A stretch of 64,000 nt of DNA from Coffea arabica (taxonomy: Eukaryota > Streptophyta > Magnoliopsida > Gentianales > Rubiaceae). Shown here piece after piece: positions 7,439 through 64,000 of the stretch (position 1 is its first letter; each line of letters starts with the position of its first letter). A model generated the notes under the pieces. The model was not told the origin of the DNA. It did not search any database and saw only the letters and a program-made list of their open reading frames with translations. A program made the translations under genes and the position numbers. The stretch covers positions 15,377,557 to 15,441,556 of the forward strand of contig NC_092320.1 of the NCBI RefSeq assembly GCF_036785885.1, written 5' to 3'.

Positions 7439-10400
7439 TTACAATGAAACATTACGGACACTAATGGTGGGTATGTGGGAGACTTTGTCAAAATCCTGTC
7501 CCTGATCTTCATGACCATTTGCTGCTTGGATCCTATCTGTGAATTTCTTTGGCATCCGCACAATGTTCAACTCTTTCAGAGTTTTAACGACTTTCAATCC
7601 ATTCGGAACCATCTCCAGCTTTGGGCAATATACAATCGTCAAGGCCGAAAGGTTGGGCATGGCTCCTTCATCAACATTCCACTTCTCTAAGTTATGTAGA
7701 CCTTCAAAACGAAGATATCTAAGTTGGCCAAAACCCGTTGCCTTGCACCTCATTTCTTTGCCGAGAAAAGATCTATATTGCAAGTGAAGTGACCGCAGAT
7801 TAGGAAGCCTTTCCAGTGTCTCCATGGGATCATCCTCTATCTCGAGACTGGATAGCTTCAATTTAAGAAGGCTTGCATACATGTACTGGGCTTCGTACCG
7901 TGGAAAATTGTCCATGGGACAACTTACCTCTAAGCCTTGAAGATTGCGACGAGAGAAACACTGACCAACAACATCCGACACTTTCTTCTTGATTGAGGCG
8001 GCAGTGGCTGCTGAATCTTTGTCAGAGTAAATACGTAGAGATGTGCAACCCACGTGGTCTGAGTTTGACATTAATCTATGGATTTCTGTGGGAAAGTCCT
8101 CATCAAGGTCATCTAACCACACCACGGCCGATAGTACTCGAAGGTTCCTCAACGTGGATATGTCTTGAGATGAGCAAGTCGGAGGACAGAAGTTTCCTAG
8201 GATCTCAAGCTTGTCCAATCCCTTGACTCGCAATTTCCTGCAGAACAAGTTCAACTTAAACTTGCCCAGAAATTCCATATCTTGCCTGTAGTTTTCCGGA
8301 AGATACAAGTGCCTAAGCTGTCTCATCTTCCACAGCACATTGGGTATTCTAAGCACTCTGGCATGCCGTAAATCAAGTGTTGCAAGTTCTGTAAGTTGCC
8401 CAAGGATGATGGCAAACAGTGGAAAACTGAACTTCTCAAACTCAAGTATCGCAGGTGGATCAGCTCCCCAATAGCTGTTGGGAGCCTCGAGTGATCTGCT
8501 ACTAAGATAAGTACACTTTTCAGTATTTGATCTCCAGACAACGCAGGACAGAGCCCTTCAATGGCCAACACTCTGAGCATTTTGAACCGATTGAATTGAG
8601 ACTTCATTTTCTTAGTAAGACGCCCTTCATAACCTTCATTACCTGAGACCAACAAGGCAAGTGACCTCAGGTGCCTAGTATTTCTCTTCTCAGCTGGAGG
8701 GAAATATTTCCTTGCACCCTCCTTAGAAAAATGGACAGCTAGACGGTAAACTTGTGAGTGATCATTATTGCCATGCTCATTGAGAATTCCATCATGATAA
8801 TAGCTTATGGATAACAAGAAATTCTCTTCTTTGGCCTTGAGCAAACTTAGGTCTCTCATTAAGTCATGAAGGCGACACGATGCGAATGATCTTCCAACGG
8901 AGGACGGCATCACATCATCATCATCAGGGGCTTTACCTTGAACCATGCACCGTGTTACTAATTCTCCCAGGTATCTTTCTGCTACATCCATCATTGATTC
9001 TTCACCAATCTGATCTTTTGTTGATATTATACCTTCTGCAATCCATAACTGGTACAATGCCTCTGTGTCTATGTCAGAGTCTTCTTCATATCTACTCAAG
9101 TAAAGGAAGCAAGGCTTCAACTTGTAGGGCAAGTCATTGTAGCTTAAAGCTAGTATCTTGTGCAGATTTCCTTCTTCTTTGATCAAGTTGTTTCCTCTTC
9201 CAAGATGAGCTTTAATGTTTCTATTGACAGTCGCCCACTCATTCAGGTCCTTCTTGGTGGCAAGAGTTCCGCTGAGTACTATCACAGCCAATGGAAGACC
9301 CCCACATGCTTTCACCATTTCCTTCCCTAAGTTTTTCAATTTTTTTAAATCTTCATGTTCTGTCAAAGAGAGATGATGAGTAGTTCTGTTAGTCTTATTA
9401 CTTAATAGACAGAAGTGTCGAGTTGCTCAATGTATGTGCAGTACATTGAATTAACAATTTAACATTTCTGTTTAGCATCATGAATATATGTGTGTGTATA
9501 TATAAGAAACTCTGAGAAAAATTGAAACTTCTCCATTGAGAAACAAAAAATAAGAAACTTTGAGAAAAATTGAGCCAATTCCATTGAGGAAAGATCATCT
9601 GTTGTTGTTTTTGTTTAGTCAATAAAATTTGGAGCAGAAGACATGTAAAGGGATGTTTATACTTTCGGGTGAAACAGAGGATTTGCCTGTGTTTCGGGAA
9701 TTTGTCTCTTCGTGTGCATTGTGTCGTTAAATCAATAAAAGTTGTGAGCTTAACAAAAAGGGGGCAAAAAGAAAAAAAGAGTATAGCCCCAAAAGAGGGG
9801 AAAATACTTAACCACTCTTTATAGTCCAATTAATTATGAACTGCTCATCAACCACTCACATTTCGGGTGAAAAAAAGGATTTGCCTGTCAGATTTACTCA
9901 AGTTGCGTTTTATTATACACCGCTGTTCATAAGAAACCCAAAAAAAAAAAAAAAACTTTACTCTATGCTCTAATATTTCTTGTTTGACTCATATCAATAT
10001 TCGTCTTGCCTTCTCTTGCCTTTGGCTTTTAGAGGCAGTAAAATTAAAATTGCATGGCATTGTAATTCCTCTAGTAGTTTCTTTTCATTATTTTTTTTTT
10101 ATTAAAGGTCAACAATATATACATACACCTACACTATAGTAAAGGGGGGGCAGATCAAATTGGGAGAACTAAACCACCTCCCATTCCACAAATATCTTTA
10201 AGTTTTAGTGGCCGCTAACCATTCAAGGGACTGTTTACTAGTTTCTTTTCTTTGATTACCGTGTACTAATAAGTAATAAGGATAGCCACAACAAACAAAC
10301 CCTCAAGATCTACAGTTTATCATCCCTTGATCAAGTAAAAAAGGCCCAATTTAGCAAAATAATAAAAATAAAAAATAAAAAGTGTTTTAAGAAGTCATGT

Positions 10401-11459: not shown

Positions 11460-14000
11460 ACAAAAAGATGAATTCTTTTTTTTTTTTTTTCAAGGAAGCG
11501 TGTAGGTAGGTTTAAGGGTAGTACATTTGAGGAAGCGATGACACCTCCTACTTATATTCATCTTCTTAAACTACATAAACTAGAAGGATTGGAGGGAGGG
11601 AAAGAGTATTAATTAGGTAATACATTGCTTACAAGTTTCTTAGACAGCCCAATAAGTTGTCCCTGATTCGGGATGCAATAAGCTTTTTCCCCACAGAAGA
11701 AAAGCATCCTCTTCCATATAGATACTGTGATTTATCAAAGAAAAGAAATGCATCTCAGATCCTTTTGAAAGAAATTAATAGCGGATTTTTCTGATACCAA
11801 GTACGATAACGAAGGAAAGTATAAATAGTATCAAATTAAATTCCTTATGCCTATATCCATGTCTCTATTTCATATTGACCAGATGTTCCATACCTCATCC
11901 AGCTATCTAAAGAAGGCAAGAAGACCCTCTTCTCTATTGAATACTTTGGTTGAAACATTTCTTTACTAGTGAGGATTGCGATCTATAGCCATGTGGCTAA
12001 TGCGATTGTTATAACTCTATGTATGCACGTATAGTTCCACAGACATATTCTCAATGAAAGCCAATCAAATTGCATTTTTTGCTGCGTAGCAAGAGTATAA
12101 ATTCTGCAATGGATTTTATTTCAAAATTCGTCTGCCGATCTTTACATACCACTTCTGCGTGCCTTCTATCCCTTAATCCCTGTCCTAATAGTTGTCTTAC
12201 TCCATGCATGAACTACGCGAAAAAGTTAGTGGCAACAAAACAAAACTAGCACAAGTAGAGGATATTTCTTGTCAACTGTACTATTCTTGACGAAAGGAGT
12301 TGATTGCAAGTCCCCCCATGGTTAATTACGTTTCATTTCAGGGCCTCTGATCTAATAGCATTTAATTTTCCACGCTTTTTCTTGCTTTCTAAGTGCAGAA
12401 CTTCTTTTTTTTTTTTTTTTTTTTAATTTTAACAGGGGAAAGTTGGAGTTTAAAAAATGGAGAGGATGAAGAGGAGATACCTTTGAATCGCAACGTCTCA
12501 ACTTTTAACTATTAGATCAAGACTTTCTTGATTTCTAAGTGCAAATCATCTTGCAAAAAATGAACATAATTTTTAAGTTATTTTGACAACCTCTAGAAAT
12601 CCGTTTTAGAGAGAGAGAGAGAGAGAATGCCCACTTTTACATCCAACCCAACAATTTACCACATAGAAAATTAAACATTCAATGACCAAAACCTAGAAGA
12701 CCTCATGCATTGAACTTTTAAACTTTTTGGGGATGTACCTTTGGGGGCTTTTTAGCCTCTAAATCCAATCTTCGCCCAAATGAACTTATTCGTACTCTTT
12801 TTTTTTTTTTTTTTTTATTTTAGTTCCTGGAGACTATGGACAACTTGAACATAATGGCATAAGCTAGTCAGCAAAATTCAAAAATATAAAAAAAAATCTG
12901 TACCTAAAACATTAAACAATGATAATGGACTAAAATGGAAAAGCAAACCACCAGTGAGATAACCTATTATTGTGTTGTTGCCAAGTTGGGATGCATAAGA
13001 AAATTGGTCTTTGATATCCAGTGTTTGTTTGCCAAGAAAAGGGAACGAAAATGACTTTCACGCCAGTTTTGAATATTTGTTTCTTAGGAAATTTATGGGA
13101 CCCATTACATTCCACTCATTTTCCTTAAAATTTTCCTTGCTGAAATTTATATGGAAGTGACTCAGGGAAAAGTTTCAACTAATTATCTTTTACAACTCCT
13201 TTCTTTCTAAATTAGAATATCTTAGAATTTACAATTCAAAAAATTGGCTTGTAATTAGACATTTTATTCTTATTTTAACAACTAATGAATTAGTAATTTG
13301 TTGACTTTTTATGACATTAGTACTTTTTTTTGTTTTGCATTTTATGCTCCCTCTTTTATGTCTATATATTAACTTGTGGTTAAAGAATGTGATTGATTTT
13401 GAGGTAACAACAACTCTTCCATTATGCAAAATGTTATGTTTATTACATATTTTTACATGTATTAAATACCAAAAAGAAGTTTAATATTGAATATTTTCTA
13501 TTAACGAATACATTACCCAATTTTTTTTTGTGACTTTCCGGTTAAACAAATGCAAGAATTTGTATTTTCTTGCATCATTTTCTTGTTAACCAAACACATG
13601 TGGGAAAATTAGTTTCCTTCCATTACATGGCTGCACTTCATTTCTTCCCACGGCATACTTTCTTACACGGTTTCCCCCCTGAAACAAACAAAGCCTTAAG
13701 TTTTCTTTTTCCTTCCCACGATATCAGTTGCGAAGCCATTGTTGTTTAAACAAAAAGGTATTATAAAAAAAAAATTCATTAATTAAAAATATAATCTGCA
13801 TTAAATTACAGCACAAACTCTAATTAGACAAATTACATCAAGAAATATGCAGAGTATAAGCTGAGTGAAAATCATAGACACGAGACACATAATTAATACG
13901 GAAATGGAAAAGGTTTGAGAGCATCATATTCCAGCAGTGAATTAATCATGCCCGTCAAATTGATCCTAACAGCACAAGTTAAAATCAATTAGGATCAGTT
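11460..14000. repeat. Intergenic DNA with duplicated block (12263-13705)
   Basis: No gene seen. From 12263 to 13705 the sequence is nearly the same as 40509-42463, in the same orientation. The copy here lacks the 470-bp hAT-type element that sits in the other copy, so it preserves the empty target GTTGGGAT at 12985-12992. It includes a (GA)n run near 12610 and several long T runs. The segment 13700-13900 continues into the 3' flank of NLR copy B and resembles 50110-50250 at the same place in copy D. Confidence 0.7.
11551..11558 (-). promoter_or_regulatory. TATA-like box of NLR copy A
   Basis: On the minus strand GAATATAAGTAGG lies about 100 bp before the ATG. Copy D has a similar, stronger TATATAAATAG at the equivalent place; copy B has lost this segment. 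Confidence 0.45.
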
Positions 14001-30720: not shown

Positions 30721-31570
30721 AAAAACTAAGAGTCTGTTTCGAATCTTCTGTTCTCAAATTAGTCTCTATTCTCTATGTCTCTTCTTTGTATAACTGTCAT
30801 GTTGCCTCTAATATTTTAAAAACCAAAACTCAAACAAACCGATAACAATCGGTTGACAAGTTTACTCAAAACCATTCATCCAACAACTCAAAAACTTGTT
30901 TTCTTGTTAAGGTTTAAGAAAAAAGATGATTTGGGATAAAAAAAATAAAGAAGAGTTTTAGTTGATTTCTACGTTTACGACCAACAAGACTCTTTATTGT
31001 TAAAAAAGAAAATAGAAAAATGTTTTGAGTTATCTGTTTTAAATGTTTTGAGTAAACTTGTCAACTAATTATCATAAAATTAAAGGTGACGTGACAGCTG
31101 TACAAAAAAGAGACAAAAGGAATAAAGACTAATTTGAGAATAGAAGATTTGAAACGCGTTTCGATTGCTACTTTTTGAAGTTTTTGCTACTTAATTATCT
31201 TATATGTTTGGCCTTGACAGGCTTTTTGTCAACTATATCACGAGTTGTCTTACAACAGAACCAAAAAGTTTGCTGCCTCAAAGCTTCAACTCAAATTTCA
31301 GGATATATCATAAAAGCAAGAGCAGTAAAAAAAGAACCAGGTATCAATAAAAGAGACAGAAAATACAAGATTGTAACACATATGTCGTGATATATCATAT
31401 CGTGTTTGGTATTGTAGATCATCATCGCTAGCATTTATGCATGCGGTTCCACAATTAAAAGAAAAAAACAAAAACAAAAGAGCGCAATAACTCATAAGAG
31501 CTGCTATTTACAACAAATAACGTTAACAAGACCACATTTTCTACATAAATAAACATATGTCCAGTCCAGT
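30721..31570. other. Intergenic, no gene seen
   Basis: AT-rich. Short frames only (31175-31390, 31298-31495), none with a domain. Two imperfect inverted stretches around 30740-31150 (AGTCTGTTTCGAATCTTCTG at the left; an inverted TAGAAGATTTGAAACGCG at the right) may be the worn ends of another miniature element of about 420 bp. Confidence 0.4.
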
Positions 31571-35522: not shown

Positions 35523-35973
35523 CATGGTTCGAAGTCTCGGCCGAGACCGAGACGACTCGGCCGAGTCGTCACCGTCTCGGCCGAGACCGAGACGACTCGG
35601 CCGAGTCGTCACCGTCTCGGCCCCTGCCGATACGATACCGTGACGAAACGATACCGAGATACTTGACTCGCCGAGAAATCGGCCGAGACGTCACCGCGAC
35701 GGATTGACTCGGCCGAGTCACACCGAGTCACTCCGAGTTATCTCGAGTCAAGACGAGAAATCGGTCGAGTTACACCGTGACGGATTGACTCGACCATTTC
35801 TTTTGCTATTTTTTATTATTTTTATTTAGCATACTTTTTTTATATTATTAACAAATTTTAGAATATTAAATACTTTAAAATTTGCGTCTCACCGAGACCG
35901 CGACCGATATGCCGAAACCGATGTGGAACGTTCCTGGCCGCGACCGTGACCGCAACCGCGACTTTGAACCATG
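35523..35973. mobile_element. Miniature element with CTCGGCCGAG palindromes, 278 bp before the RPM1-like ATG
   Basis: Inverted ends CATGGTTCGAAGTCTCGG and CCGCGACTTTGAACCATG, flanked by AAGAC (35518-35522 and 35974-35978). The duplicated upstream region near 33728-33740 reads through without it. The left arm contains a perfect 40-bp tandem pair (from 35539) built of GAGACCGAGACGACTCGGCC. GC-rich arms enclose an AT-rich centre. No coding capacity. The superfamily is unclear; a 5-bp target is seen but could be longer and worn. Confidence 0.75.
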
Positions 35974-39151: not shown

Positions 39152-40508
39152 CAAGTAGCAGCAATAGCAACCGTGGCTTCCTTTTCTCTGGTTTGCTTGC
39201 CCTTCCTGTTGTGGAATGTGGACGACACTGCTTCCTCTTCTTTTGTGTTTTTTTTTTTCTTAGGAACTTCTTTTTCCTTTGAAATCCACGAGAGAAGTTC
39301 ATCAACTTTTGTGTCTTGCCTTAGTTATTGTATACATTGTGTATATTGCATGATGTTGTTAATGACTTAATGTACTGTATACTATTACTCTTATCCTTTT
39401 GTTTCTTGATCTTTTCTATAATTGATTTAGCAAATGATCAAGAGGTAGGCAGGTTACAAGTGTATTAATAATATCTACCAGAAAATTTTCATTAAAAACT
39501 CCAAATAATAACTCTTAAATTTTGGTTAGAGATCATTCATCATTGACTAGTATAATTATTTTGTACTAATAAACCTACAATGTGTATCACTAGTTGTTTC
39601 TTAAAATATTTTGGGCAAATTACACTTTATCCCCTGTGATTTAGCATTTTTTACATAACTCCCCTATGATTTCAAAATCTAAAGGTAACCCCATCATAGT
39701 TTGAATTAAAATGTTAAAGTGACAGAGTTTGAATTTCAGAACGGAGTCAACTAAAAAATCAAAAATACCCCTGTATAAAGTTAAAAATTATTTATTAACC
39801 ACAGAGATGTTATGTATATATTTTGAAAACTATAAAAGGATTCAGAGTGTCATGCATATTATGTTTATATATTTTGGTCATTTAACCATTTTAGTTTTTT
39901 AAATAAGGGTAATTTTGATATTTTTATAGATTCCGTTACGAATGATCATTTCTGTTACTTTGACACTTTAATCCAAACTATGATGGGGTTACGTATAGTT
40001 TTTAAAAGTATAAGGGGGTTATGTGAAAAATAGATATACCGCAAGGGGTAAAGTGTATTTTGTCCCATATTTTTACATTGAAAATCCGCATTTCATTCTC
40101 TCTTAGGAATTATCACAAAACACAAAATTTGGATTCGATAAAATTCAGTCTAAACATTTTTCCTTCTAAACTTGACAAATCTGGGTGAACAATCAATCAT
40201 CTTCTAGTAGTATCCAAGGACTCGTTAGTTTTTTTTCTTTTTTGTACATTATTTATTAGAAAATCAAAAGATGTGATTTGTGCTGGCAATTAGGAACAAA
40301 AATGCAGATGATCTATGTATATGTATGTTGGCAACCAAGAGCAACCACTGGCCTATTGGCTTGAAGTTACAAGGATCAAAACATGAAGTTACGTATGGAG
40401 AAGAAAGGTTAATGTATCCGCGGAACGGGTGAAAAGTTTGTGCAGGTAGTTTTAATTCTCTGGCAGGCAATGATCTTTTGAGTTTATTCCTTTCTTCCCC
40501 CAACAGCT
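39152..40508. other. 3' flank of the RPM1-like gene
   Basis: Holds one long-TIR element (39613-40065) and no gene. A frame on the minus strand at 38793-39305 is a shadow of the NLR. The region 40100-40508 has nothing recognisable. Confidence 0.5.
39613..40065. mobile_element. Long-TIR miniature element (GGGCAAATTACACTTTA ends)
   Basis: About 453 bp with inverted arms of roughly 120 bp. The left arm begins GGGCAAATTACACTTTATCC and the right arm, read on the other strand, GGGACAAAATACACTTTACC. Both arms share CATAACYCCC and AACCCCATCATAGTTTG. Flanks share ATATTTT. The long arms suggest a Mutator-like origin. This layout is very common in plant genomes. Confidence 0.75.
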
Positions 40509-41229
40509 TATTTCTTGTCAACTGTACTATTCTTGACGAAAGGAGTTGACTGCAAGTCCCCCCATGGTTAATTACGTTTCATTTCTGGGCCTCTGATCTA
40601 ATAGCATTTAATTTTCCACACTTTTCCTTGCTTTCTAAATGCAGAACTTCTTTTTTTTTTTTATTTTTTTAACTGGGGAAGGTTGGAGTTTACGAGACGG
40701 GGAGGGGGAAAAAGGGATTTGAATCCAATACCTTTAAAAAGTGGAATTTCACCATTAACTATTGTATCAAAGTTTCCTCTCATCTTGCAAAAAATGAACA
40801 TAATTTTTAAGTTATTTTGACAACCTCTAGAAATTCATTTGACTATATATTTTAAAAGGAAGGAGAGAGAGAGAGAACCCACTTTTATATCCAACCCAAC
40901 AATTTACCACATAGAAAATGAAACATTCAATGACCAAAACCTAGAAGACCTTATGCATAGAACTTTTAAACTTTTTGGGGATGTACCTTTGGGGCTTTTT
41001 AGCCTCTAAATCCAATCTTCGCCCAAATGAACTTATTCGTACTTTTTTTTTTTTTAATCTTAGTTCCTGGAGACTATGGACAACTTGAACATAATGGCAT
41101 AAGCTAGTTAGCAAAATTCAAAAATATAAAAAAAAATCTGTACCTAAAACATTAAACAATGATAATGGACTAAAATGGAAAAGCAAACCACTAGTCAGAT
41201 AACCTATTGTGTTGTTGCCAAGTTGGGAT

Positions 41230-41699
41230 TAGGGCTGCAAACGAATCGAGCAGCTCGAGTCATGCACGATCAAAATCGAGCTCGAGTCGAGTTCGAGCTG
41301 GCTCGAGTCGAAATCGATCTCAAAATATTAAGCTCGTTAGCTCGCGAGCTCGAGTATATATATAATTTTTTTTATTTTTTTTATTTTAAGTATATATATA
41401 ATTTTTTTTATTTTTAAGTATATATATTTTTTTATATTTTTATTTTAATAGTAAAATTACATATATATCCTTAATATTTTTATTATTTATTAAAAAATAT
41501 ATTATTTTATTTATTTTTTAAAAAATAAAATAATTATTTTTTTAATTTTTTTCGAGCTTGAGCTTGGCTCGAATTGATTCCACTCGAGCTCGAACTCGAA
41601 AATTGCCGGCTTGTCGAGCTCGAACTCTTGGTAAAATTTAGTCGAGACTCGACTCGATTAGCCCAAAGTTCGACTCGACTCGGCTCGTTTACAGCCCTA
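41230..41699. mobile_element. hAT-type MITE, GAGCTC-rich family, copy 3 (best preserved)
   Basis: 470 bp. Ends TAGGGCTGCAAACGA and, on the other strand, TAGGGCTGTAAACGA. A perfect 8-bp target duplication GTTGGGAT lies at 41222-41229 and 41700-41707. The duplicated block near 12985 has a single GTTGGGAT. The 8-bp target and TAGGG ends are diagnostic of hAT elements. The arms are dense in GCTCGAGTCGA words; the AT-rich centre includes TAGTAAAATTACATATATAT as in copies 1 and 2. Confidence 0.92.
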
Positions 41700-42103
41700 G
41701 TTGGGATGAATAAGAAAATTGGTCTTTGATAGTGTTTGTTTGCCAGGAAAAAGGGAGAAAAGTGAACGAAAATGACTTTCAAGCCAGTTTTGAATATTTG
41801 TTTGTTAGGAAATTTATGGGACCCATTACATTCCACTCATTTTCCTTAAAACTTTTCTTGCTGAAATTTATATGGAAGTGACTCAGGGAAAAGTTTCAAC
41901 TAATTATCTTTTACAACTCCTTTCTTTCTAAATTAGAATATCTTAGAATTTACAATTCAAAAAATTGGCTTGTAATTAGACATTTTATTCTTATTTTAAC
42001 AACTAATGAATTACTAATTTGTTGACTTTTATGACATTAGTATTTTTTTTCTTTTACATTTTATGCTTGTCTTTTATGTCTATATATTTGTGAAATAACT
42101 TAT

Positions 42104-42134
42104 ACACACACACACACATGTGTGTGTGTGTGTA
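42104..42134. repeat. (AC)n(TG)n palindromic microsatellite
   Basis: Eight AC units run directly into seven or eight TG units, so the stretch can fold on itself. The other copy of the block, near 13370, lacks it. Confidence 0.85.
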
Positions 42135-42531
42135 TATAAACTTATGGTTAAAGAATGTGATTGATTTTGAGGTAACAACTCTTCCAATATGCAAAATGTT
42201 ATATTTATTACATATTTTTACATGTATTAAATATAAAAAAGAAGTTCAATATTGAATATTTTCTATTAACGATTACATTACCCAATTTTTTATGACTTTT
42301 TGGCTAAACAAACACAAAAACTTGTATTTTCTTGTTTCATTTTGTTAACCAAACACATCTGGGAAAATTAGTTTCCTTCCATTACATGACTGCACTTCAT
42401 TTCTTCCCACGGCATACTTTCTTACACGGTTTCCCCATGAAACAAACAAAGCCTTAAGTTTTCGAGGATTAGGTGACCAAAAGCCCGTTGGCAACCGACG
42501 ATAACCATAATCTTTGGCGGATAAGGAAATA

Positions 42532-43815
42532 CTAGGAGGCATAAAACGCGCGTTGCGCGTTGGGATAAATATAAAATATGCCCCCTTAAACATGTGGATT
42601 CATGGAACAAAAATGTTTGTTGGTTAATAATTTGTGTACACAGCTAAGCATAAATATACATGAATAAGTAGACGGCAAAATCATTTCACAAAAATAGTAC
42701 GAATATTTATTTACATTTATAGAGAGGTACTGCTAGGATTTAAAGCTAATACTTTTTAAATTAATATTTATTACTCGTTTAGGATGAGAATAAAATTCAA
42801 CATTTTCATGAAGTGCAGAAGCATAGGATGTGATGATTTGAATATATCGTACTTCATAAGAGAGAAAAAGTACTGTCAAGATTTAGAACTACTTTTGTTG
42901 GAACTTGGGAAATTCTTCTTTTATCTCACTCCATTTCTTGTTTAACATGAGAATCAAGTTTACTATTTTTCATGAAGTATGGAAACATAGATTGTGACCA
43001 CAAGTATATATTATGCTTCACAGGACAAAAAGGGAAATACTAAGCTAAATTTGAAGGCATTTTCATTATATATAGCAATATTGATCCAATTGTGGTTATA
43101 GTAGCTTGAAAAAAAAAAGCGATTGAATTCTCATATTAGTTGACTATGAGTTAACCGAGTTGAACAATGAAATTAAAATGATATGGGTACAGTTTTTGAA
43201 TTTTTCTTTAGTTGAATTGGATAATAATAAAAGAGTTCTAAAATTGTGAAATATAAAGGAATATCTCGCTGATGAAAAGAGTTCTAAGATTGTTGAACTG
43301 TTTTCAGATCTTTCCGTAATTCATTGATGGTGGCATAATTCTTTACTCACAGTCATTTCTCTCCTACTAATAAATCGGAAAATATCGTGATTTATGAATT
43401 TCCTTTGTTGCTTTGTATTTGCAGGACTGGGAGATTGTAGTAGCTTTAGAAAATCTGGCGGAGTGCCAAGAAACTATCTTAAACTGGGAGGTTGTAGGAC
43501 TGGGAAGTTGTTAAAGGCATTGGCTTCACCCATAAAGGCTGCTCTTTTTGACAAGGCCCTTTTTGATAAACTATCCTGTTGTTGCGGCCATGACAACTCC
43601 TGAGAAGAATACTCGCCAACGGTCATCTCTTCTAGGTAAAATGCTAGCTAAAGAAAAAATATGAGACCAAGGATCTCAAGTCTCCTAAAGAATATTTATT
43701 CTTGATAAACTATAAAGGTTATTATCCACCAAACATTCTTATTTCATGAATCTATGTTTAATTGGGCATGTTTTTTATTCATTCCAATGCGCATCGCACG
43801 GTTTATGCCTCCTAG
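42532..43815. mobile_element. 1.28-kb element with inverted Helitron-like 3' ends, carrying a host gene fragment
   Basis: Left end CTAGGAGGCATAAAACGCGC; right end, read on the other strand, CTAGGAGGCATAAACCGTGC. About 34 bp of inverted similarity, with TA on each outer side. Read outward, each end is GC-rich hairpin, about ten bases, then CTAG next to a T, the layout of a Helitron 3' terminus. The left hairpin is perfect (AACGCGC, loop GTT, GCGCGTT; 42545-42561), the right one worn. Either this is a TIR element with a TA target, or two Helitron 3' ends in opposite orientation. Between them lies a fragment of a filament-like plant protein gene. Confidence 0.65.
43425..43655 (+). pseudogene. 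Captured fragment of a filament-like plant protein (FPP) gene
   Basis: After an acceptor-like TTTGTATTTGCAG comes a frame coding LAECQETILN, then, after a short insertion and a frame change, LKALASPIKAALFDK, and then TPEKNTRQRSSLL. These are the conserved C-terminal words of the FPP (DUF869) long coiled-coil proteins, where LAECQETI, LGKQLKALA and RQRSSLLD are typical. In this copy two frames and internal stops separate them, so it is a non-functional fragment. It lies inside the 42532-43815 element, which points to capture by a transposon. Confidence 0.75.
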
Positions 43816-44360
43816 TAATAATGCATTCATCAATCACATTTCAGATGCTCATCAAACAAAGGAAAATGGAAGCCCCATATAAAACTCTCCAATTTCAGAG
43901 TCGGGACCTAAATTTTGCAACAAATTCAATCAAAACATCAATTAAATCAATTATGGTTCATACACTTCCTGAGAGTCACAACATTACAACATCTTTAAGT
44001 TACAATTTTTGGCCTATCTCTTCTACTTGAAGTTGCTGTGAGTTAGCCTGGAACTCTGTCATTTGTACATGATTGTATGGGGACTGTACTTTTAAAAAAA
44101 AAAAAGAGTTATAAGAAGGAGGGTCCTATTTTACATCTGACTGCTTCAGAAGTCTAGTCAACATTGACTACTTCTGCAACAACGTGGAGTGTAAGGAGGA
44201 GCTACACAAGACAAAACTTTTTTTAATGGTTGTATTTCCAAAAAGAAAGCACGCGTGCACCAGAATTTGATTATCATCAATGAATGATATAGGACCTGCT
44301 GCCTTTTCTCCAATACTACCAGCAGTACAAAATCATTGAAACTCCAAGCTCTACATACGT
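43816..44360. other. Spacer between the FPP-bearing element and the S-acyltransferase exons
   Basis: AT-rich, no domain. On the minus strand this is the 3' flank of the S-acyltransferase exons. An A11 run lies near 44094. Confidence 0.4.
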
Positions 44361-44937
44361 CTAAAATGATATCCCTGCTAACTTATCAACTCCCGCGTGG
44401 AAACGAAGGTCAGAACCAATCTGCTCTGAGGTGGGATATACCCAGCAAAAGATATTTGGTCCTAAAACCTGAAAGTCAAGTAAATCACGTATAAATGCCT
44501 AGAAAGCTAAGACCATATCTCGGAGAGCATGTTGTACCATGATATCTACAGTATTAGTTAGTAAACTTCTATGCATAAAAAGCCTAATTTGATCAGCCAA
44601 ATGAAGTGCCTACTCTAGACTCTCTGATTTGCTACTAAGAACAAGAGAAGAGAAACAACTTACTGATATCATATTCTCATAAGCATCAAGATCATATGGA
44701 TGTGAATATAGATAACCTCCTTTTTCAGCAAGCCACATAGCTCTCACACCTTCATGGTACTGTATGGTAAAAAAAGGTAGGAAGTAGTCATCAGACTTGA
44801 TCAGATGCCAGATAGATGAAAAAAAATTACTATCACCACCAATGCAAACCTCTATTGTGGTCTTGTTTTGCAGAATAAGATAAACATGCCAAAACACAAA
44901 GATGGTCAGCACAAGAGTCAATGGCACCAGCAGGAGC
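44361..44937 (-). pseudogene. C-terminal exons of a DHHC protein S-acyltransferase (PAT15/16-like), 5' part missing
   Basis: Three minus-strand exons with good splice sites: 44937-44850 (LLLVPLTLVLTIFVFWHVYL, then ILQNKTTIE), 44759-44664 (YHEGVRAMWLAEKGG, then HPYDLDAYENMI) and 44468-44361 (VLGPNIFCWVYPTS, ending at TAG). Both introns have GT/AG ends and the phases fit. These words are the fourth membrane helix and conserved C-terminus of plant PAT15/PAT16-type enzymes, which attach palmitate to cysteines of membrane proteins. The zinc-finger DHHC catalytic domain and the first helices would lie upstream, but I find no trace of them between 44940 and 46570. The fragment cannot be an active enzyme alone. 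It shares strand with the SEUSS-like exons further up, so a joint transcript is possible. Confidence 0.85.
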
Positions 44938-46571
44938 CTGAAATGACCTGAAGGCTAAACTGTTCAAGTTGAATGCAAGGATATGCAAATTATAACTTGT
45001 TGAAATATAGATACAGGAAGAAGTTTATACACAAGATGCGCGCCAGCAACTGAACATTACATGCCCAATTAAACATAAATTATAAAAGCACTCGTCAATG
45101 TTTCTATGTCTGTACATCTTTATCTATAGCATATACATAGTATATACATATTTGTTCTTCATGCAAGTCACTGTAGCAAAGCATTGTGAATTTGATACAA
45201 ACATTATAAACCAAAAGTATAATGAAATAGTATGTTTTGAGAATAAAAACCTAATCCCTAAAGCAACTTTTGTCACTAGCATATAGTTTTCTTAAATCAG
45301 GATCAAACAAAAGGATTTGCCATTTGAAAATATATTTATCCCGGCCATCATCCAAATATTATACTTGTTTGTGCTATTCTTTTCTAAAACCATCTATATT
45401 TTCTTTTCCAATTGAAAAAACCGTGACACTGGCATGTCTGCAAAGCAACCCCAACCAAAGTCTCTAAATTCTCCAAAGCAACCACAACCGGAGACTCCAT
45501 AGTTTGGATGGCTAGCCATATCAAAAGCTCTCCTATCAGTGAGCAAGCAAGGGACAGAAATCTCTCGTACATGGTCAAAAATTAGCACAAAACTTAGCAT
45601 AAATTCAATAATAATCAATAAGAAGACAAATATGCAACAATAATGTTGTCTTCCAATCTTTCAATACTATTATCCGGAGCACTTTATCACTAATTGCAAG
45701 CAAATGCTCAAAGCACCGATAGTGAAGAATGCTACTAACCCATTAGCTTTCAAATATATAGCTTTCAAATCATATCTTTTATACCAATTACCCTAACACT
45801 TACCGTAAGCGTTAAGAATTTACAAAAAAGGAAACAGGTTCCACCATAGTTTCACAAAGGCCTCATTAGAATCTATACCGACTTTTCCAAATAGATCACT
45901 TTCATATTTTTCTAACAAAAAAAAAAGTGAAATAACACATTACCAGCTTCCAGTATTATAGACAAATTCATAATTACAAAAAACATCCTCAAGATAATTT
46001 GGCAATTTAAACTTTATAAATAAAAAATAAATTTAACACATAAAACCAATGATTTGGGAAAAAAGGGGAAAAAAGTAACTGTTGCTCGATGGTGGCATTA
46101 CTTGAAATAATCTATCTTTCTTTCTGGGATTACTGTTGCTGCTAATATAGCTATTAGGATTGTTACAGTCAAACTTGCAATAGTAAAGTTTAAGCACTCA
46201 ATTTATAACAATACCAATAGTAAATAAAGGGAAATAAATGAAAATGATCAGATGGTCCATACAAATTTATAAAAATAAGTAGGTCCTAGTTCAAATTAAG
46301 GAAAAAAACCTTAGGAAATAAAAGGGAAAAAAGAATGGCTTTTTATTTTCTTTCCTTTTCAAGAAAATTCAGGGGAAGGCTCACATTCTTGAGGTAGTGG
46401 TATCAATTAACATATTGAAACCCTAGAATTGTAGTCTAGACAATTCTTTTTTATCCCCTAAATGGCCAAATGAGAAGAGGTGGGCAGTTTTTAACCAAAA
46501 TAAGAAAATATAAAGGCATACCAAGGATGGAATGTGAATGATATATCTAAGGGATTCCCTGCCGAACTTAC
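44938..46571. other. DNA between the S-acyltransferase and SEUSS-like exons
   Basis: No further exon of either family was found on either strand. One stretch, 45420-45560, holds a minus-strand frame rich in Gly, Cys and Phe (ASHPNYGVSGCGCFGEF) with an internal repeat of about 34 bp; it has no recognised domain. Confidence 0.4.
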
Positions 46572-47487
46572 CAAAACCTCTTCCAGATTTTGAACCACAA
46601 ATATCACATTGCCATGCATCCTGACAAATAGAAAGAAATGGAAACAATTAGCATAATAATCAGGGATGCCACAGGTAGCTTTTTGACTATTCCATTTTGG
46701 TTTTAACTTTTTCCTCAAAGAGGAGAGCAATCGGCAGGATCTTAATAACAAATACCAATTATGAGGAACAAAATTCACATCCCCAAATAATCATGATTTA
46801 CATACTCCAATTGGGAAAGGGTGCTTTCCACTTAAACTTTACAAAATTATATGTTCCAAGAGATCCACAAGGATACCGCAATCTAGATATAAAAGCACAC
46901 CATAACATTACTAATCAACCTGCATATTTTGACAAGGAATTTGAACAAAAGAATTTGCAATAATCTTTTTCACACACAACTCAAGTCACAGAATAGTTTT
47001 GAAAAAAGCAAGTTACACAGATAAACTAAGTACTATGGCTACCTGGGGAAATACCCATAACGTATGGTGCCCAACATTGTCATATAGAGACAAACACCAC
47101 CTCTTTTTAGCACGGGGAGAGTAATATTCTGAAACGAACTTCCTCCAATAAGCAATGCTATTATCCTGCAAAATAAAGCTCTTATAGAATACCAATCCAA
47201 GCCAAAAAACTAATTAGACCAGACTCTTATGAAACTCGTACATTCTTTATTCCTCAAAACATACATTCTAGTTACATTATCCATGAATCTTGAAGGATAG
47301 GGAAGCCAGGTAGTACAGAGGATCACGAAGTATTTTTGCAAGAAAACCACATTTATACTCACTGCAGGTCTTTGACGCTGATGGTATAGATATTGCATCA
47401 GCCCGCGAGAGCAGACACCACCATCATAGGGTCGTTCGTCCCAGATGGTGTTGCACCCTGTTGTTGAAGCTGTTGAAGAAAAATCCC
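46572..47487 (-). pseudogene. Internal exons of a SEUSS-like (SLK) transcriptional corepressor, truncated
   Basis: Three minus-strand exons: 47487-47363 (contains RPYDGGVCSRGLMQYLYHQR), 47165-47043 (41 codons, YWRKFVSEYYSPRAKKRWCL, then SLYDNVGHH and VFPQ) and 46620-46572 (DAWQCDICGSKSGRGF). Donors and acceptors are good. These words belong to the LIM-binding-type dimerisation domain of SEUSS/SLK proteins, which bridge LEUNIG-type corepressors to DNA-binding factors in the nucleus. The first exon is out of frame before ERPYD, and the rest of the domain (ATFEVLPRL onward) and the Q-rich C-terminus are absent. It is therefore a gene fragment, part of a mosaic with the S-acyltransferase exons on the same strand. 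Confidence 0.87.
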
Positions 47488-48324
47488 CTGAAAAATAAAA
47501 AGAATACAATCAGTCAAGATACAAAAAAAAAACCACTAAATGACCATCTCTTAAGCCCTAGAATTTCAAGATATTTTGGAAAACCAAAGCAAAACATCAA
47601 AAAAAAAGCAAAGGCATCTTCGCATGTAGACTGGGAAACGGGAAAATAATCGAAAAGTCAAAAACACCGAAATACTGCCTAATATTGATATTCACGTTGA
47701 AAAAAAACGAGGAGCAAAAAATTTAAAAATAAAATTGAAGGGCGAGAGAGTGGAGATCGAGGGAGGAAGAGCAGTAAAAAATCTGATGACTGCGAGGATC
47801 TTGTGATGGGATCGAAAGTCCTCCCAAAGGCTGGGAGGGGATTCGACGACGATGAACTTGAAGCGCAGGGAGGTTGAAGGAAACCCCAGGGAGGTGGGAG
47901 AAGGGGGACTTGTGATGTTGGGGGTAGAAGGAGCTCCTAGAGGAGAGGTAGACAGTGTGGTGGAGAAAGTCAGAGGAGAAAATAAAGAGGTCAAGATCGA
48001 GAGAGAGAGGAAGGACCGGAGAGAAAGTTTGAGGAAAGAGACGAGAAGAAGAAAGGGAAGGGAAGAGAGGCGGCGTTTTAGTCTGACCTAGGGTTAGAGT
48101 TAGAAGAGTCACGCGCAAGACGGTAAAACAGTGGTGAACGTCATGGAAGAAGACAACGAAGCTAAACCGTGCCGGACGAAAAGAAACAAGCGAAAGATAA
48201 CACATTGAGAAATTGAAGTTGATTTGTTGGAAAAAAAAAAAAGAAATTGAAGTTGAAAGGCGAACAACACAAAATGACGTCGTCAGGAACCGCAGCACCG
48301 CGTGAGTAATCTGTTGGTGTTGGG
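47488..48324 (-). promoter_or_regulatory. Probable captured promoter and leader of the mosaic gene
   Basis: GC content rises, and the minus strand from about 48110 to 47690 is strongly pyrimidine-rich (CTCTCTTCCCTTCCCTTTC-like runs), as in leaders of housekeeping plant genes. The open frames here (47692-47994, 47723-48298, 47852-48091) follow from that base bias and have no domain. On the plus strand a possible divergent first exon starts at 48325. Confidence 0.45.
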
Positions 48325-48567
48325 ATGGATTTAGCTTCTGAGGATGAGGATAAAGGTGAGGCGAAGGAGAGAAGGGGAGAAGAGAGAAAGCGGCGGCAGC
48401 GGAGGAAATTTACGAAAACCCTAGAGAGGAAGTATCTGCAGACGTCTGGCGCATCGCGCGGAAAAAAAAAGGCTGGTAATTCACATGCTTGGCACGTGAG
48501 AGGACGACGAAAACCATCCAGGTCATCAGAGCCCTTCGGCTCTTTATCTACTTATGTTGATAATTGA
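48325..48567 (+). CDS. Doubtful short frame, possible captured first exon (80 aa)
   Basis: Starts MDLASEDEDKGEAKERRGEE and is highly charged and basic later (RKRRQRRKF). It sits head to head with the pyrimidine-rich leader, as first exons of divergent genes do. Around codons 48-53 AAAAAAAAAG makes the frame low-complexity. No domain recognised and no continuation seen downstream. It could be the first exon of another captured gene, or chance. Confidence 0.25.
   Translation: MDLASEDEDKGEAKERRGEERKRRQRRKFTKTLERKYLQTSGASRGKKKAGNSHAWHVRGRRKPSRSSEPFGSLSTYVDN
48528..48543. other. Hairpin AGAGCC-CTTC-GGCTCT
   Basis: A perfect 6-bp GC-rich stem with a 4-nt loop, at the right side of the mosaic region. 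Possibly part of an element end; too short to be sure. Confidence 0.35.
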
Positions 48568-48679
48568 TACCACAGCAGAGTCCAGTTACGACCTGTCTTT
48601 TTTCCCTATCCTTAATAGGATTGGATCTTTTGCTATCTTTAATAGGCAGAACATCTTTTGTTCTCACTAGGCTTATTAC

Positions 48680-49223
48680 TAGGGGTGGGCGCGGGTCGGG
48701 TACCCGTCCCATTCACCATTTGGCTGATCCGACCCGCACCTTGCGGGTCTGCCATTTTCTGACCCTTACCCGCCCCGCATATCAGCGGGTACCCTATAAC
48801 GGGTACCCACTGAGATAGGGTCGGATCAGCGGGTACCCGTCCCGCCCCGTTTATCATTTAATTTTTAAAAAAAAATGATTTATACCAATTTAATTTTATA
48901 TTTTACACATTCATCTAAGATTTAATAATTTTTTTTCTAAAAAAAGGTTTCCCACCAAGAAACAAGCATATGAAGAGAATATAAGATAAAGGAAAAAAAT
49001 TAAAAGAATTCAAAATCAATAAAAGTTTGAAATAAGTAGCACAATTTTTAATATATATGTTTCACATTAATTAAACTTCTTTCTATAAAATATAAGATCA
49101 TGGCCTTTACAAATGAATTTTATAAATAAACTATAGTCTCTCATATTTGTAATGCAATTTGTTCAATAAAATTACTTATTTAGTTCTAACTTATTATTTT
49201 ATAGTGTGTGTATAAAAATAAAA

Positions 49224-49255
<32 letters not shown>

Positions 49256-49437
49256 CGGGGCGGATCGGGTACTTGCGGGTTTTTAATTATGTGACCCTAA
49301 CCTGCCCCGCATCTTAGCGGATACCCGACCATCTTTTGACCCGATCAAATAATAAAAATCGGATACCCTAATTTTCGGATCGGATCGGATCGAATATAAC
49401 GGGTTTTCGGATTAGCGAATAATTTTGCCCACCCCTA
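48680..49437. mobile_element. hAT-type element with GGGTACCCG repeats, 758 bp
   Basis: Ends TAGGGGTGGGC and GCCCACCCCTA are exact inverted copies of 11 bp. A perfect 8-bp target duplication CTTATTAC lies at 48672-48679 and 49438-49445. The arms hold GGGTACCC and GGATCGG words; the centre is AT-rich with a (TA)n run at about 49228-49254. No transposase frame, so it is non-autonomous. It is distinct from the GAGCTC family but has the same hAT signature. Confidence 0.92.
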
Positions 49438-49934
49438 CTTATTACATTTTTTTAACAACATGAAATTGATTGTATTTCTTGTGCTAGGAAAAAGAATAAT
49501 TAAATCAAATAAATTTATTTTAAATTTTAAAGATTTTCCTGTATTGATACTGATTTTATCTCTTCTCCTTATACATTCTTTTTTATTTTTCCCTTCCACA
49601 CCTCCCCACACCCTTAACTTAACTGTTGAACAGGATTTGAACCTGAACCTGACAATTTTAAAAAGATTCTAAAAGTCATCCCCTTATACATGTGATATTA
49701 GATTGAATAAAATTTTAAAGTCTTAATATTTTTATATACACAAATTTGAAAATATATATATATGTTATATGTGATGGCTGTTTTGTATATAAACATATGA
49801 TATCCTTACTCAAATTTTAAGTTTTACCAATAGTTGAAGTATTATTCGTGAAATATAATAGTCAAAAGTTTATTACATATTTCTTACAATTTGCTAAAAA
49901 GTACGAATATCTTTCAGTGCGTTTTACATGAAAT

Positions 49935-49993
<59 letters not shown>

Positions 49994-50655
49994 CATAGGA
50001 ACGTTTATTATATATGTGTAATACAATTTTTGTACTAATTGTGCTATCTAGGGTATCCGCGCGATGGATTGATGAATAAATGCAAGACAATAAAATTTAG
50101 TACACAAACGATATCAGCTGTGAAGCCATTATTGTTTAAACAAAAAGGTATTATAAAAAATTCATTGATTTAAAACATAATCTGTATTAAATTACAGTAC
50201 ACACTCTAATTAGACAAATTACATCAAGCAACCTGCAAAGTATAAGCTGAGTGCAAATCATAGACATGAGACACATAATTGATACGAGTCCAATTACATT
50301 AAAGGGAGGCTCGACTCCGTTGTACTAAAATGGAAAAGGTTTGAGATCCAGTATCACATTCCAGCAGTAAATTAATCTTGCCCGTCAAATTGATCCTAAC
50401 AGCACAAGTGAAATCAATTAGGGTCATTTTTTAAGTACCATACAAGGCTTAATGAATCATACAAATGAATGTTAAGATTGAGATGCTAAACAAAAAGAAA
50501 TTAATCAGAGGTACTTGATATGCAACTCGTGACTTTGTAAGCATAGGTTAGTTGAACAAGGGGCAATAATGGATTATATGCGTTGATGAAGAGCAAAATC
50601 CAGAAAGAAACTTAGAATTGTTGACAAGAGAGAGAGAGGTACCTGATCTGCTGAG
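49438..50655. repeat. 3' flank of NLR D, duplicated spacer
   Basis: 49570-50060 matches 6320-6850 and 23700-24240 (CCTTATACATGTGATATTAG and onward). 50110-50250 matches 13740-13860. A (TA)n run lies at 49939-49988. The 3'-UTR donor of NLR D (GATCAG|GTACCTCTCT) is just below 50645. No other gene. Confidence 0.6.
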
Positions 50656-60488: not shown

Positions 60489-60789
60489 TGTTGAAACTTT
60501 TACTTATGTTGTTGTTTAACTTGTTTTTCAAATGGAGTCATTCATTTAGTGGCCTAGAGTTTAGGAATCTGCTGTACGTTAGAGTCTTTCAGTTATGACT
60601 TAGTCAGCAGAGTTAGTGGCTTAGTGGTCTAGTCTTTAGGAGTGGTGGGGTTGTGGAGAAGGTGCCAGATATGGGACCTGATCTTAAGGGATTTCAGTTG
60701 TGTGTTTTGCCTATTTAAAGGCTCCAAAGCTTATGATTAAATACGACTTTTTGGCCACAGACTACTGTTATCTTTGCTATTTCTTATCA
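60489..60789 (+). mobile_element. 5' LTR of a Ty1/copia retrotransposon
   Basis: Starts TGTTGAAAC and ends ATCA just before a primer-binding site, giving 301 bp. A TATA-like CTATTTAAAGG lies at 60711-60721. The right LTR is outside the window, so neither the LTR length nor the target duplication (CAAAC on the left) can be confirmed. Confidence 0.75.
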
Positions 60790-60790
60790 G

Positions 60791-60802
60791 TGGCATCAGA
60801 GC
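60791..60802 (+). other. Primer-binding site, initiator Met-tRNA type
   Basis: TGGCATCAGAGC, one base away from the usual plant copia site TGGTATCAGAGC, lies one base after the LTR end. Confidence 0.85.
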
Positions 60803-60863
60803 TACAAGATTCCTGAGAGTGAAACACCTGAAATTATCTACTCTTCCCCACTACCCTATCCAA

Positions 60864-63800
60864 ATGGCCAATGACTCAAATTTTGTGCAAGCCGCCATCC
60901 CTCGCTTTGATGGTCACTATGACCACTGGAGCATGCTCATGGAAAATTTTTTACGGTCCAAAGAATATTGGTCAGTGGTTGAATCTGGAATTCAAGAACC
61001 ACCAGCAGGTGCAACCGTGACAGATGCTCAGCAAACAGACATTGAAGCTAGAAAGCTCAAAGACTTGAAAGCGAAGAACTATCTCTTCCAGGCTATTGAT
61101 CGTCCCATCTTGGAGACTATTCTTTGCAAAGATACATCCAAGGATATTTGGGATTCAATGAAGAAAAATATCAAGGCTCTTCTAGAGTGAAGCGTGCACA
61201 GCTTCAAGCCTTGAGGAGGGATTTTGAAGTTTTGCAGATGAAGGATGCGGAATCTGTTACAAGCTTTATTGGAAGGACGATGGAAATTGCAAATAAAATG
61301 AGATGCTATGGAGATGAGATTAAAGATGTTAACATAGTAGGAAAAATTCTGCGTTCTATGACGCGAGAATTTAACTATGTTGTTTGCTCAATTGAAGAGT
61401 CAAACGACATAGATGACCTCTCTCTTGATGAATTGCAGAGCTCCTTGTTAGTCCATGAACAGAAGATGAATCGAAGCTGGACAGCAGAGGAACAAGCTTT
61501 GAAAGCTTCTACCAACACTCGCTCCAACAGCTCAAGAGGAAGAGGCAGAGGCCGAGGAAGAGGAAGGGGAGATCGAGATCATGACAAATCTAGAGTAGAG
61601 TGCTTTAGATGTCACAAATATGGTCATTATGCTTCTGAATGTGTCACTGAACTGCCAAAGTATAAAGAAAGAGAGGAGAACTCAAATTTTGCAGAAGAAA
61701 CGAATGAACCAGAAACTTTGTTGATGGCTGCCCATGAAAGGAAAAAGATTGAGTCGAATATTTGGTATGTCGATACAGGCTGCAGCAATCACATGAGTGG
61801 AAGTAAGTCTTCTTTTTCGAATCTAAATGAAAGCTTTCACTCTACTGTCAGTTTTGGTGACTTCTCTACTGTGAAAGTGATGGGAAAAGGTGATGTTAAG
61901 ATACATACTAAGAATGGCCTTGTGAAAACAATTTCTAATGTGTTGTATGTTCCTGATTTGAAAAGTAATTTGTTGAGTGCTGGTCAGTTGCAAGAAAAGG
62001 GGTATGTCATTACAATTAAGAAAGGCACTTGTGAAATTTATGATCCTGATAGAAGAAGTTCTATTGCAACTATCCAGATGAGTTCTAACAGATTATTTCC
62101 AATAGAAATTGAAAGCATTCAATCTTGTTTGATGGCTGAGGTAAAGGACCCCTCATGGTTGTGGCATTTTCGTTATGGCCACTTAAGTTTTGGTGGACTG
62201 AGGGCTCTGCAACAGAAAACCATGGTGACAGGGCTTCCGGAAATTACTGTTCCCTCCCTAGTTTGTGAAGACTGTGTTGTCAGCAAACAACACCGTTCTC
62301 AGTTTCCCAAAGGAAAGTCCTGGAGAGCAAAGGATGTGTTAGAGCTGGTGCATTCAGATATTTGTGGCCCAATAAACCCATCGTCTAATGGAGGTAAAAG
62401 ATACTTAATTACCTTCATTGATGATTTTTCACGGAAAACATGGGTTTATTTTTTACAGGAAAAATCAGAAGCTCTGACTATGTTTACAAGGTTCAAAGCT
62501 TTTGTGGAAAATGAAGCAGGCAAGACTATTAAGTCTCTTCGAACAGATCGGGGTGGCGAGTATTGCTCAAAAGAATTTGAAGGTTTTTGCATGCAACATG
62601 GCATTCGAAGAGAACTTACAGCTGCATATACACCACAACAAAATGGTGTATCGGAGCGGAAGAACAGAACAATTCTTAATATGGTGAGAACTCTATTAAC
62701 AAGGGGAAGAGTTCCAAGGACTTTTTGGCCGGAGGCTGTAAACTGGAGTATTCATGTTTTAAACAGAAGTCCAACTTTTGCCGTTCAAAACAAGACTCCT
62801 GAAGAGGCTTGGAGTGGAAGAAGACCAGCTGTAGATCACTTTAGAATCTTTGGTTGCCTTGCTTATGCCCACATCCCGGATGCGAAAAGAAAAAAACTTG
62901 ATGACAAAGCTGAGAAATGCATCTTTCTTGGCGTAAGTGAATCCTCCAAAGCCTATAAATTATTCAACCCACTGACGAAGAAGATTGTGACCAGCAGGGA
63001 TGTTGTTTTTGAAGAAGAGAGCACCTGGGATTGGGATGGGCAGCAGCCTAAACAAGTCTTTTATGATGATGATGCTAAACAGGAGCAAGTTCCAGCACTT
63101 GACATGCCACAAAACTCTTCAGATACAACTCAAACAGCTACTGGAATTTCACAACCAGTTGCTGAAGTAAATGAAGAAGGAGCCCAGTCAGTTGGTCGAG
63201 TTAGAAGAAGGCCTGCTTGGATGGAAGATTATGAGGTAACTGGGTTAAGTAATCCAATTACTCAGTTTGCTTTGTTCGCAGATTGTGATCCTACAACTTT
63301 TGAGAGTGCCGTCAAAGAAGAAAAATGGCAAAAGGCAATGGACGATGAAATCAATTCAATTGAGAAGAATGACACTTGGGAGTTGTGTGATCTTCCTAAG
63401 GGACACAAAACCATTGGTGTCAAATGGGTCTTCAAGACAAAGCTAAACAAAGATGGCGGTGTTGACAAGTACAAAGCACGCCTGGTGGCAAAAGGATACA
63501 AGCAGCAGTACGGGGTTGATTATACAGAAGTATTTTCTCCAGTTGCAAGACATGACACGATCAGATTGGTGGTTGCATTAGCAGCGCAAAATTCTTGGCC
63601 TATCTTCCAGCTAGATGTCAAATCAGCATTCTTGCATGGGTATTTGGAGGAGCAGGTATTTATTGAGCAACCCCCTGGCTATATTAAAGTTGGGAATGAG
63701 AATAAAGTGTTCAGACTGAAAAAGGCTCTTTATGGACTAAAGCAAGCTCCGAGGGCTTGGTATAGTCGAATTGAGACTTATTTTCTTAAAGTTGGTTTTA

Positions 63801-64000
63801 TAAAATGTCCTTATGAGCATACAATGTTTGTTAAGATTGAAGATGGGGGGAAGCTTCTCATAGTTTGCCTGTATGTTGATGACCTTATATTTACTGGAAA
63901 TTGTGATACCATGTTTGGTGAATTCAAGAAATCCATGATGAATGAATTTGAAATGACTGATCTTGGTTGGATGCATTACTTTCTTGGCATAGAAGTAATG
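60864..64000 (+). mobile_element. gag-pol of a Ty1/copia retrotransposon (Tnt1-like), gag frameshifted, cut by window end
   Basis: The gag frame begins at ATG 60864 (MANDSNFVQAAIPRFDGHYD) and stops at 61190. One A appears to be missing from the A-run near 61162-61167, and the downstream frame then stays open to the end of the window. Seen in that frame: an Arg-Gly-rich stretch, the zinc knuckle CFRCHKYGHYASEC (61601 on), the protease DTGCSNHMSG (61772), the integrase HHCC-type region and DDFSRKTWVYF and DRGGEY (62546), and reverse transcriptase with YVDD at 63872. RNase H and the 3' LTR lie beyond. The order PR-IN-RT defines Ty1/copia. The gag frameshift would prevent normal expression, so this copy is probably non-autonomous; a sequencing error in the A-run is the alternative. 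Confidence 0.9.

Follow-up and report, generated by a model that had tools for sequence, protein, structure and literature searches.

The described systems closest to the locus reported here are non-autonomous plant Helitrons, as presented in excerpts of two papers, one covering GIGANTEA of Lolium (PMC2702305) and the other multi-fragment elements of maize (PMC3288121). In these excerpts, a Helitron runs from TC to CTRR, has a palindrome of 16-20 bp placed 10-12 bp before its end, and inserts between A and T; elements with several termini arise by nesting (PMC3288121). A hairpin position of 8-12 bp from the end is also given, and the Lolium element ends in CTAG/T with 8 bases between (PMC2702305). 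The locus compared with them here lies in a 64-kb stretch of Coffea arabica DNA (the window, to which all window-wide counts and searches refer). It holds pieces of a SEUSS-like (SLK) gene and of a PAT15/16-like S-acyltransferase gene, which are unrelated and both on the minus strand.

The locus shares several features with the Helitrons of those excerpts (PMC2702305; PMC3288121): gene fragments that keep their introns, a 3' plan of hairpin, short spacer and CTAG/T, frameshifted exons, and several fragments near each other. It differs from them in that no 5' TC end or A/T empty site was found, and in that SLK and PAT are only putatively within one element. Two further systems are compared. Pack-type elements with terminal inverted repeats (Pack-TIR) and Pack-MULEs likewise have inverted ends flanking a captured exon, the counterpart here being a fragment of a gene for a filament-like plant protein (FPP). 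Unlike them, the locus has Helitron-like ends with TA alone outside and no longer target duplication seen, and SLK and PAT lie outside the element concerned (42530-43817). Truncated, unprocessed pseudogenes in NLR clusters also leave non-NLR exon-intron fragments between NLR genes; in contrast, two unrelated genes abut here in one orientation.

The gene fragments are real, and they are very probably non-coding. The locus looks like decayed pieces of two plant genes, ordinary gene debris from transposons or deletions, and its kind is already known, under capture and under deletion alike. The pieces are placed between a plus-strand CC-NLR frame and the fourth of four related CC-NLR units (Table 1). 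Proof of capture would make the locus a further case of transposons reshuffling host exons, within a fast-changing resistance-gene cluster. There is also an annotation risk: gene finders could call a false SLK/PAT fusion gene at the locus.

Table 1. Features at and around the SLK-PAT locus (positions in the window)
Feature	Position	Strand	Remarks
CC-NLR frame, single, open, 985 codons	36194-39148	plus	Rx_N, NB-ARC, WH_DRP, LRR (Pfam)
Paired-end element	42530-43817		128-nt inverted ends, 76.6% identity
FPP (filament-like plant protein) decayed C-terminal exon piece	43422-43655	plus	inside paired-end element; frames broken
PAT15/16-like last exon P3	44361-44468	minus	TAG stop
PAT15/16-like exon P2	44664-44759	minus	reads YHEGVRAMWLAEKGG...
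PAT15/16-like exon P1	44850-44937	minus	last membrane helix; requires upstream phase-2 donor
SLK exon S3	46572-46620	minus	reads DAWQCDICGSKSGRGF; donor GTAAGT; ends in phase 1
SLK exon S2	47034-47165	minus	LIM_bind domain start; alternative short end 47043
SLK exon S1	47363-47487	minus	acceptor TTTTTCAG, donor GTGAGT; likely frameshift ~47443-47437
Pyrimidine-rich leader, promoter/5' untranslated region-like	47700-48480	minus	72% pyrimidine, 47% GC
hAT-type miniature inverted-repeat transposable element (MITE)	48680-49437		TIR TAGGGGTGGGC; identical 8-bp flanks GTAATAAG; upstream of leader

A sequence-only reading of this DNA had proposed three SLK exons and, on the same strand, three PAT15/16-like exons ending in a proper stop. 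The SLK exons (S1-S3) hold up, with the ends of S1 and S2 corrected. Their joined translation matches the Pfam family LIM_bind (E 1.4e-10, profile positions 4-45 of 242; the query began at MQYLY of S1 and used the shorter S2). The exons are 77-86% identical (tblastn) to a presumed SLK2-like protein sequence, which served as the comparison sequence, and S2 reaches 86% over 44 aa. The translation runs from RPYDGGVCSRGLMQYLYHQRQRPA at the end of S1 through DNSIAYWRKFVSEYYSPRAKKRWCLSLYDNVGHHTLWVFPQVAI in S2 to DAWQCDICGSKSGRGF in S3. S1 probably ends before its GTGAGT donor, at 47363. Judged against this presumed sequence, S2 probably ends at 47034 with the donor GTACTT, giving ..VFPQVAI where the comparison sequence has ..VFPQAAM. 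From the same residues, the CAG/GTAGCC donor at 47043 looks like the product of a C-to-T mutation inside the old exon.

The Q-rich 5' part of S1 (47475-47443) matches the presumed SLK2-like query weakly (E 4.1). Since this part and the LIM_bind/PYDGG part (from 47437) occupy different frames, S1 very likely carries a frameshift, as measured against the presumed sequence. The LIM_bind domain is incomplete; tblastn found nothing of it past profile position 45 of 242 in the window. In exon content and reading the piece is like the SLK corepressors; it is unlike them in keeping only the start of the domain. Searches for relatives elsewhere gave 20 pattern matches to the SLK query among bacterial and archaeal contigs and 4 among viral contigs, none confirmed as a relative. 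The PDB returned no relevant entry: one search gave 4 weak matches (best E 3.8) and a second gave 2 (best E 0.74). NCBIfam gave no match.

Upstream of S1, a leader rich in pyrimidines had also been proposed, and base composition supports it. When 1272 windows of 400 nt are ranked by pyrimidine content, the top seven all fall within 47651-48400, and the part at 47700-48100 is 75% pyrimidine and 49% GC. The longest ATG-started frame in the leader (160 aa) has no Pfam family match. The leader may be the 5' end of the SLK gene itself rather than a captured foreign promoter. S1 starts with GIFLQ in one frame, and SLK proteins presumably carry GIFFQ near their start, which is a weak lead for the leader being SLK's own.

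The PAT exons (P1-P3) were likewise correctly recognised, as was their TAG stop. They correspond to the last third of a PAT16 protein, likewise a presumed sequence, with E values of 6e-21 for P1-P2 and 1e-5 for P3. Pfam DHHC gives a sub-threshold match (E 0.017) to the domain's very end, profile positions 105-130 of 133. Neither the DHHC catalytic core nor upstream PAT exons were found in the window. Exon content and reading are like those of PAT15/16 S-acyltransferases; unlike those enzymes, the locus keeps only the tail past the DHHC core. For both genes together, tblastn with the presumed proteins revealed no further exons in the window (next best matches E 0.60 and 0.33). The earlier description of fragments from unrelated genes on one strand stands. 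Two frames located at about 45.5 kb have no Pfam family match.

What did not survive is the suggestion of a chimeric protein joining part of a corepressor domain to a membrane-helix tail. S3 has 49 nt and leaves one base over; P1 has 88 nt, read as one nucleotide and then 29 codons. As the phases of S3 and P1 are incompatible, direct splicing yields no fused protein: the junction reads ...SGRGF-GSCWCH-stop, that is, six added residues and then a stop. A chimera made by direct splicing of the exons seen was rejected for this reason; only with an additional, unseen exon of 3n+1 nt could the join be in frame. In a modelled transcript, with the leader taken as 48420-47672 and its end guessed, the SLK frame begins at the sixth ATG and is 78 aa long. 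Two of the five earlier ATGs are in the guessed leader, one spans its guessed end, and two are in S1. Exon junctions more than 50 nt past a stop mark a transcript for nonsense-mediated decay. Two junctions lie that far downstream of the SLK frame's stop, and the transcript as modelled would be so marked. A working chimeric gene, in which the leader would drive a fusion of a partial SLK corepressor domain with the PAT membrane tail, has canonical splice sites on its side. Its reading is also open in the PAT exons, in S2 and S3, and in the part of S1 that belongs to LIM_bind. The out-of-frame join, the five preceding ATGs, the likely frameshift in S1 and a LIM_bind match covering only about 42 of the 242 profile positions make such a gene extremely improbable.

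The paired-end element (1.28 kb) begins 543 nt past the PAT stop. A 128-nt alignment (76.6%) shows its terminal inverted repeats, and each end, read outward, has a hairpin site, 9 nt, CTAG and then TA. End A (42532, minus strand) has an intact 17-nt hairpin (stem 7, loop 3), 9 nt and CTAG/T. End B (43815, plus strand) is homologous to it and has CTAG/T, with its hairpin decayed (a 4-bp stem is predicted). CTRR followed by T, as at a Helitron 3' end, is present at both ends; a hairpin of the Helitron size (16-20 nt) and spacing (about 8-12 nt from the 3' end) is present at end A only. Two outward-facing Helitron 3' ends would mean nested elements. By eye, TA alone is repeated on both sides; no duplication of 8-10 nt was seen.

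Inside this element lies the FPP piece, with an intron-like TTTGCAG ahead of it. The first of its three frame pieces matches Pfam FPP (E 2.2e-5, profile positions 835-855 of 871), though short of the family's curated cut-off. The other two have no Pfam match, and a presumed FPP tail matches 43422-43655 (tblastn, E 3e-6). A third gene piece is thus present near PAT, inside a mobile-looking element.

The exons, the phase clash between S3 and P1, the FPP match, the paired ends and the MITE are observed; capture, its agent and the lack of function are what we infer. Our reading, held tentatively, is of a decaying non-coding mosaic in the NLR cluster, its SLK and PAT pieces most likely joined by transposon-type capture, with Helitron-type capture favoured. 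Here, capture would have united the SLK piece, which perhaps kept its own leader, with the PAT15/16-like tail, rolling-circle (Helitron-type) elements being the agents; the captured pieces would then have decayed, and the hAT MITE would have inserted beside them. Helitron-type agents are favoured because the FPP-bearing element with its Helitron-like 3' ends adjoins PAT (0.5 kb past the stop), and because its minus-strand end, end A, is downstream when SLK and PAT are read in sense. For this latter reason SLK and PAT could be cargo of an element ending at end A. Capture of SLK and PAT themselves is no more than plausible. The sequence-only reading had already proposed Helitron or Pack-type capture. 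Transposon-like sequence close by and the FPP piece in a Helitron-like-ended element speak for that part of it; the window yielded neither a Helitron 5' end nor an empty site, nor any element with both SLK and PAT inside it.

Several results count against capture by a Helitron. The hairpin plus CTRR pattern alone is not significant, since the 4 occurrences in the window (end A among them, end B not) fall within the 1-5 of five random first-order Markov sequences. A presumed 5' consensus, ATCTMTAYTA, has no exact and 27 one-mismatch occurrences over the two strands of the window, though Helitron families vary. The left flank of end A is similar to copies at 5.3 and 29.9 kb, but these find no visible continuation to the right of the element, and no clean empty site was seen. 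Another Helitron-like end, at 45077-45035 between SLK and PAT, was considered and dropped. In a pairwise scan of 43818-49437 it scored 26.5 against end B (40 random Markov sequences gave at most 23.5) and 17.0 against end A (random up to 19.5), with a BLAST E of 4e-4 over 30 nt; in a profile search of the window it reached only 7.9 bits (E 0.15), and 5 of 40 random windows scored as high. A TIR element with SLK and PAT outside it would also account for TA on both sides. Finally, a single deletion would leave exactly this arrangement, the 5' part of one gene followed, on one strand, by the 3' part of its neighbour.

This geometry is the strength of a collapse in place, in which SLK lay upstream of PAT in a duplicated segment and the two were joined by a deletion with breakpoints in an SLK intron and a PAT intron, with a second loss in the N-terminal coding part of SLK. 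It explains well why the leader and early LIM_bind exons of SLK are followed by the last exons and stop of PAT. The introns are kept, which suggests genomic rather than retroposed copies, and the cluster is rearranged: NLR unit 2 joins, at 13705/13718, sequences that stand at 42463 and 50108 in unit 4. Collapse requires, however, that SLK and PAT were neighbours in the source genome, and a literature search pairing the two gene names found no paper with both; it also faces a third unrelated piece, FPP, nearby. We regard it as possible, and capture, with Helitrons favoured, as slightly likelier. The element at 42530-43817 might instead be a Pack-type TIR transposon with TA duplications that captured FPP, SLK and PAT having come separately, for example as filler DNA at a repaired break. 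The inverted ends and the outer TA agree with this. CTAG/T with an inner hairpin is unusual for TIR elements, and here the hairpin lies 9 nt inside (intact at one end); the failure of the left-flank relatives at 5.3 and 29.9 kb to continue visibly on the right also tells against it, and we consider it unlikely. It is more doubtful still that related rolling-circle elements each brought a sense-oriented host piece (SLK with promoter, PAT, FPP) into the NLR cluster, and that the captured SLK leader remains active, driving a spliced non-coding transcript which feeds small RNAs against SLK/PAT or affects a neighbouring NLR. Literature searches pairing SEUSS-like with Helitron, and CTCCTAGT with Helitron, found no paper.

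A candidate Helitron 5' end at 45011 (minus strand), one mismatch from the presumed consensus, was considered and dropped: its similarity to the plus-strand body 42640-43430 scored 10.5, against 15.5-19 for the ten best of 200 random sequences.

Judged by its gene content, the window is plant DNA of a resistance-gene cluster. This cluster contains four related units, at about 5.6-11.6, 13.7-22.6, 23.0-29.4 and 49.6-58.4 kb, with CC-NLR frames on the minus strand. They are about 80-93% alike over BLAST stretches longer than 1 kb. Unit 4 has two long frames, one with Rx_N and NB-ARC and the other with the NB-ARC end, WH_DRP and LRR; these Pfam assignments cover the two frames of unit 4 and the plus-strand frame of 985 codons. 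The latter belongs to another subfamily, as it has no BLAST similarity to the four units. The LRR part of unit 1 is broken across two frames that overlap (8326-8557). In unit 3 the frame listing has no entry of 100 aa or more for the N-terminal region of exon 1.

The downstream flank of unit 2 (12263-13705) matches 40509-42463 and, after 12 nt, the sequence from 50108 onward. Unit 4 thus holds 42464-50107, with the two matches 7.6 kb apart, where unit 2 has a 12-nt filler (13705-13718). A flank common to units 1, 3 and 4 begins at about 49586 in unit 4, and about 520 nt of it is absent from unit 2. For this reason unit 2 probably carries a deletion, and the 13705-13718 join is probably, at least in part, a deletion scar.

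Other mobile or repeated sequences are also found in the window. The hAT MITE has ends TAGGGGTGGGC and an identical 8-bp target duplication, GTAATAAG, on both sides. Long imperfect palindromes at 39604-40074 (~470 nt) and 30736-31155 (~420 nt) are perhaps foldback MITEs. The segment 41229-41696 (~470 nt) has repeat relatives at 16.8 and 31.7 kb and is lacking in the stretch at 12.98 kb that otherwise matches; from BLAST coordinates alone, it is an insertion with an empty-site counterpart. Polyprotein frames of a Copia-type retrotransposon, recognised by eye, occupy 60741-64000 on the plus strand and are open to the window end. A GC-rich palindrome of 84 nt (35539-35622) is 90% self-complementary, with GGCCGAGAC units.

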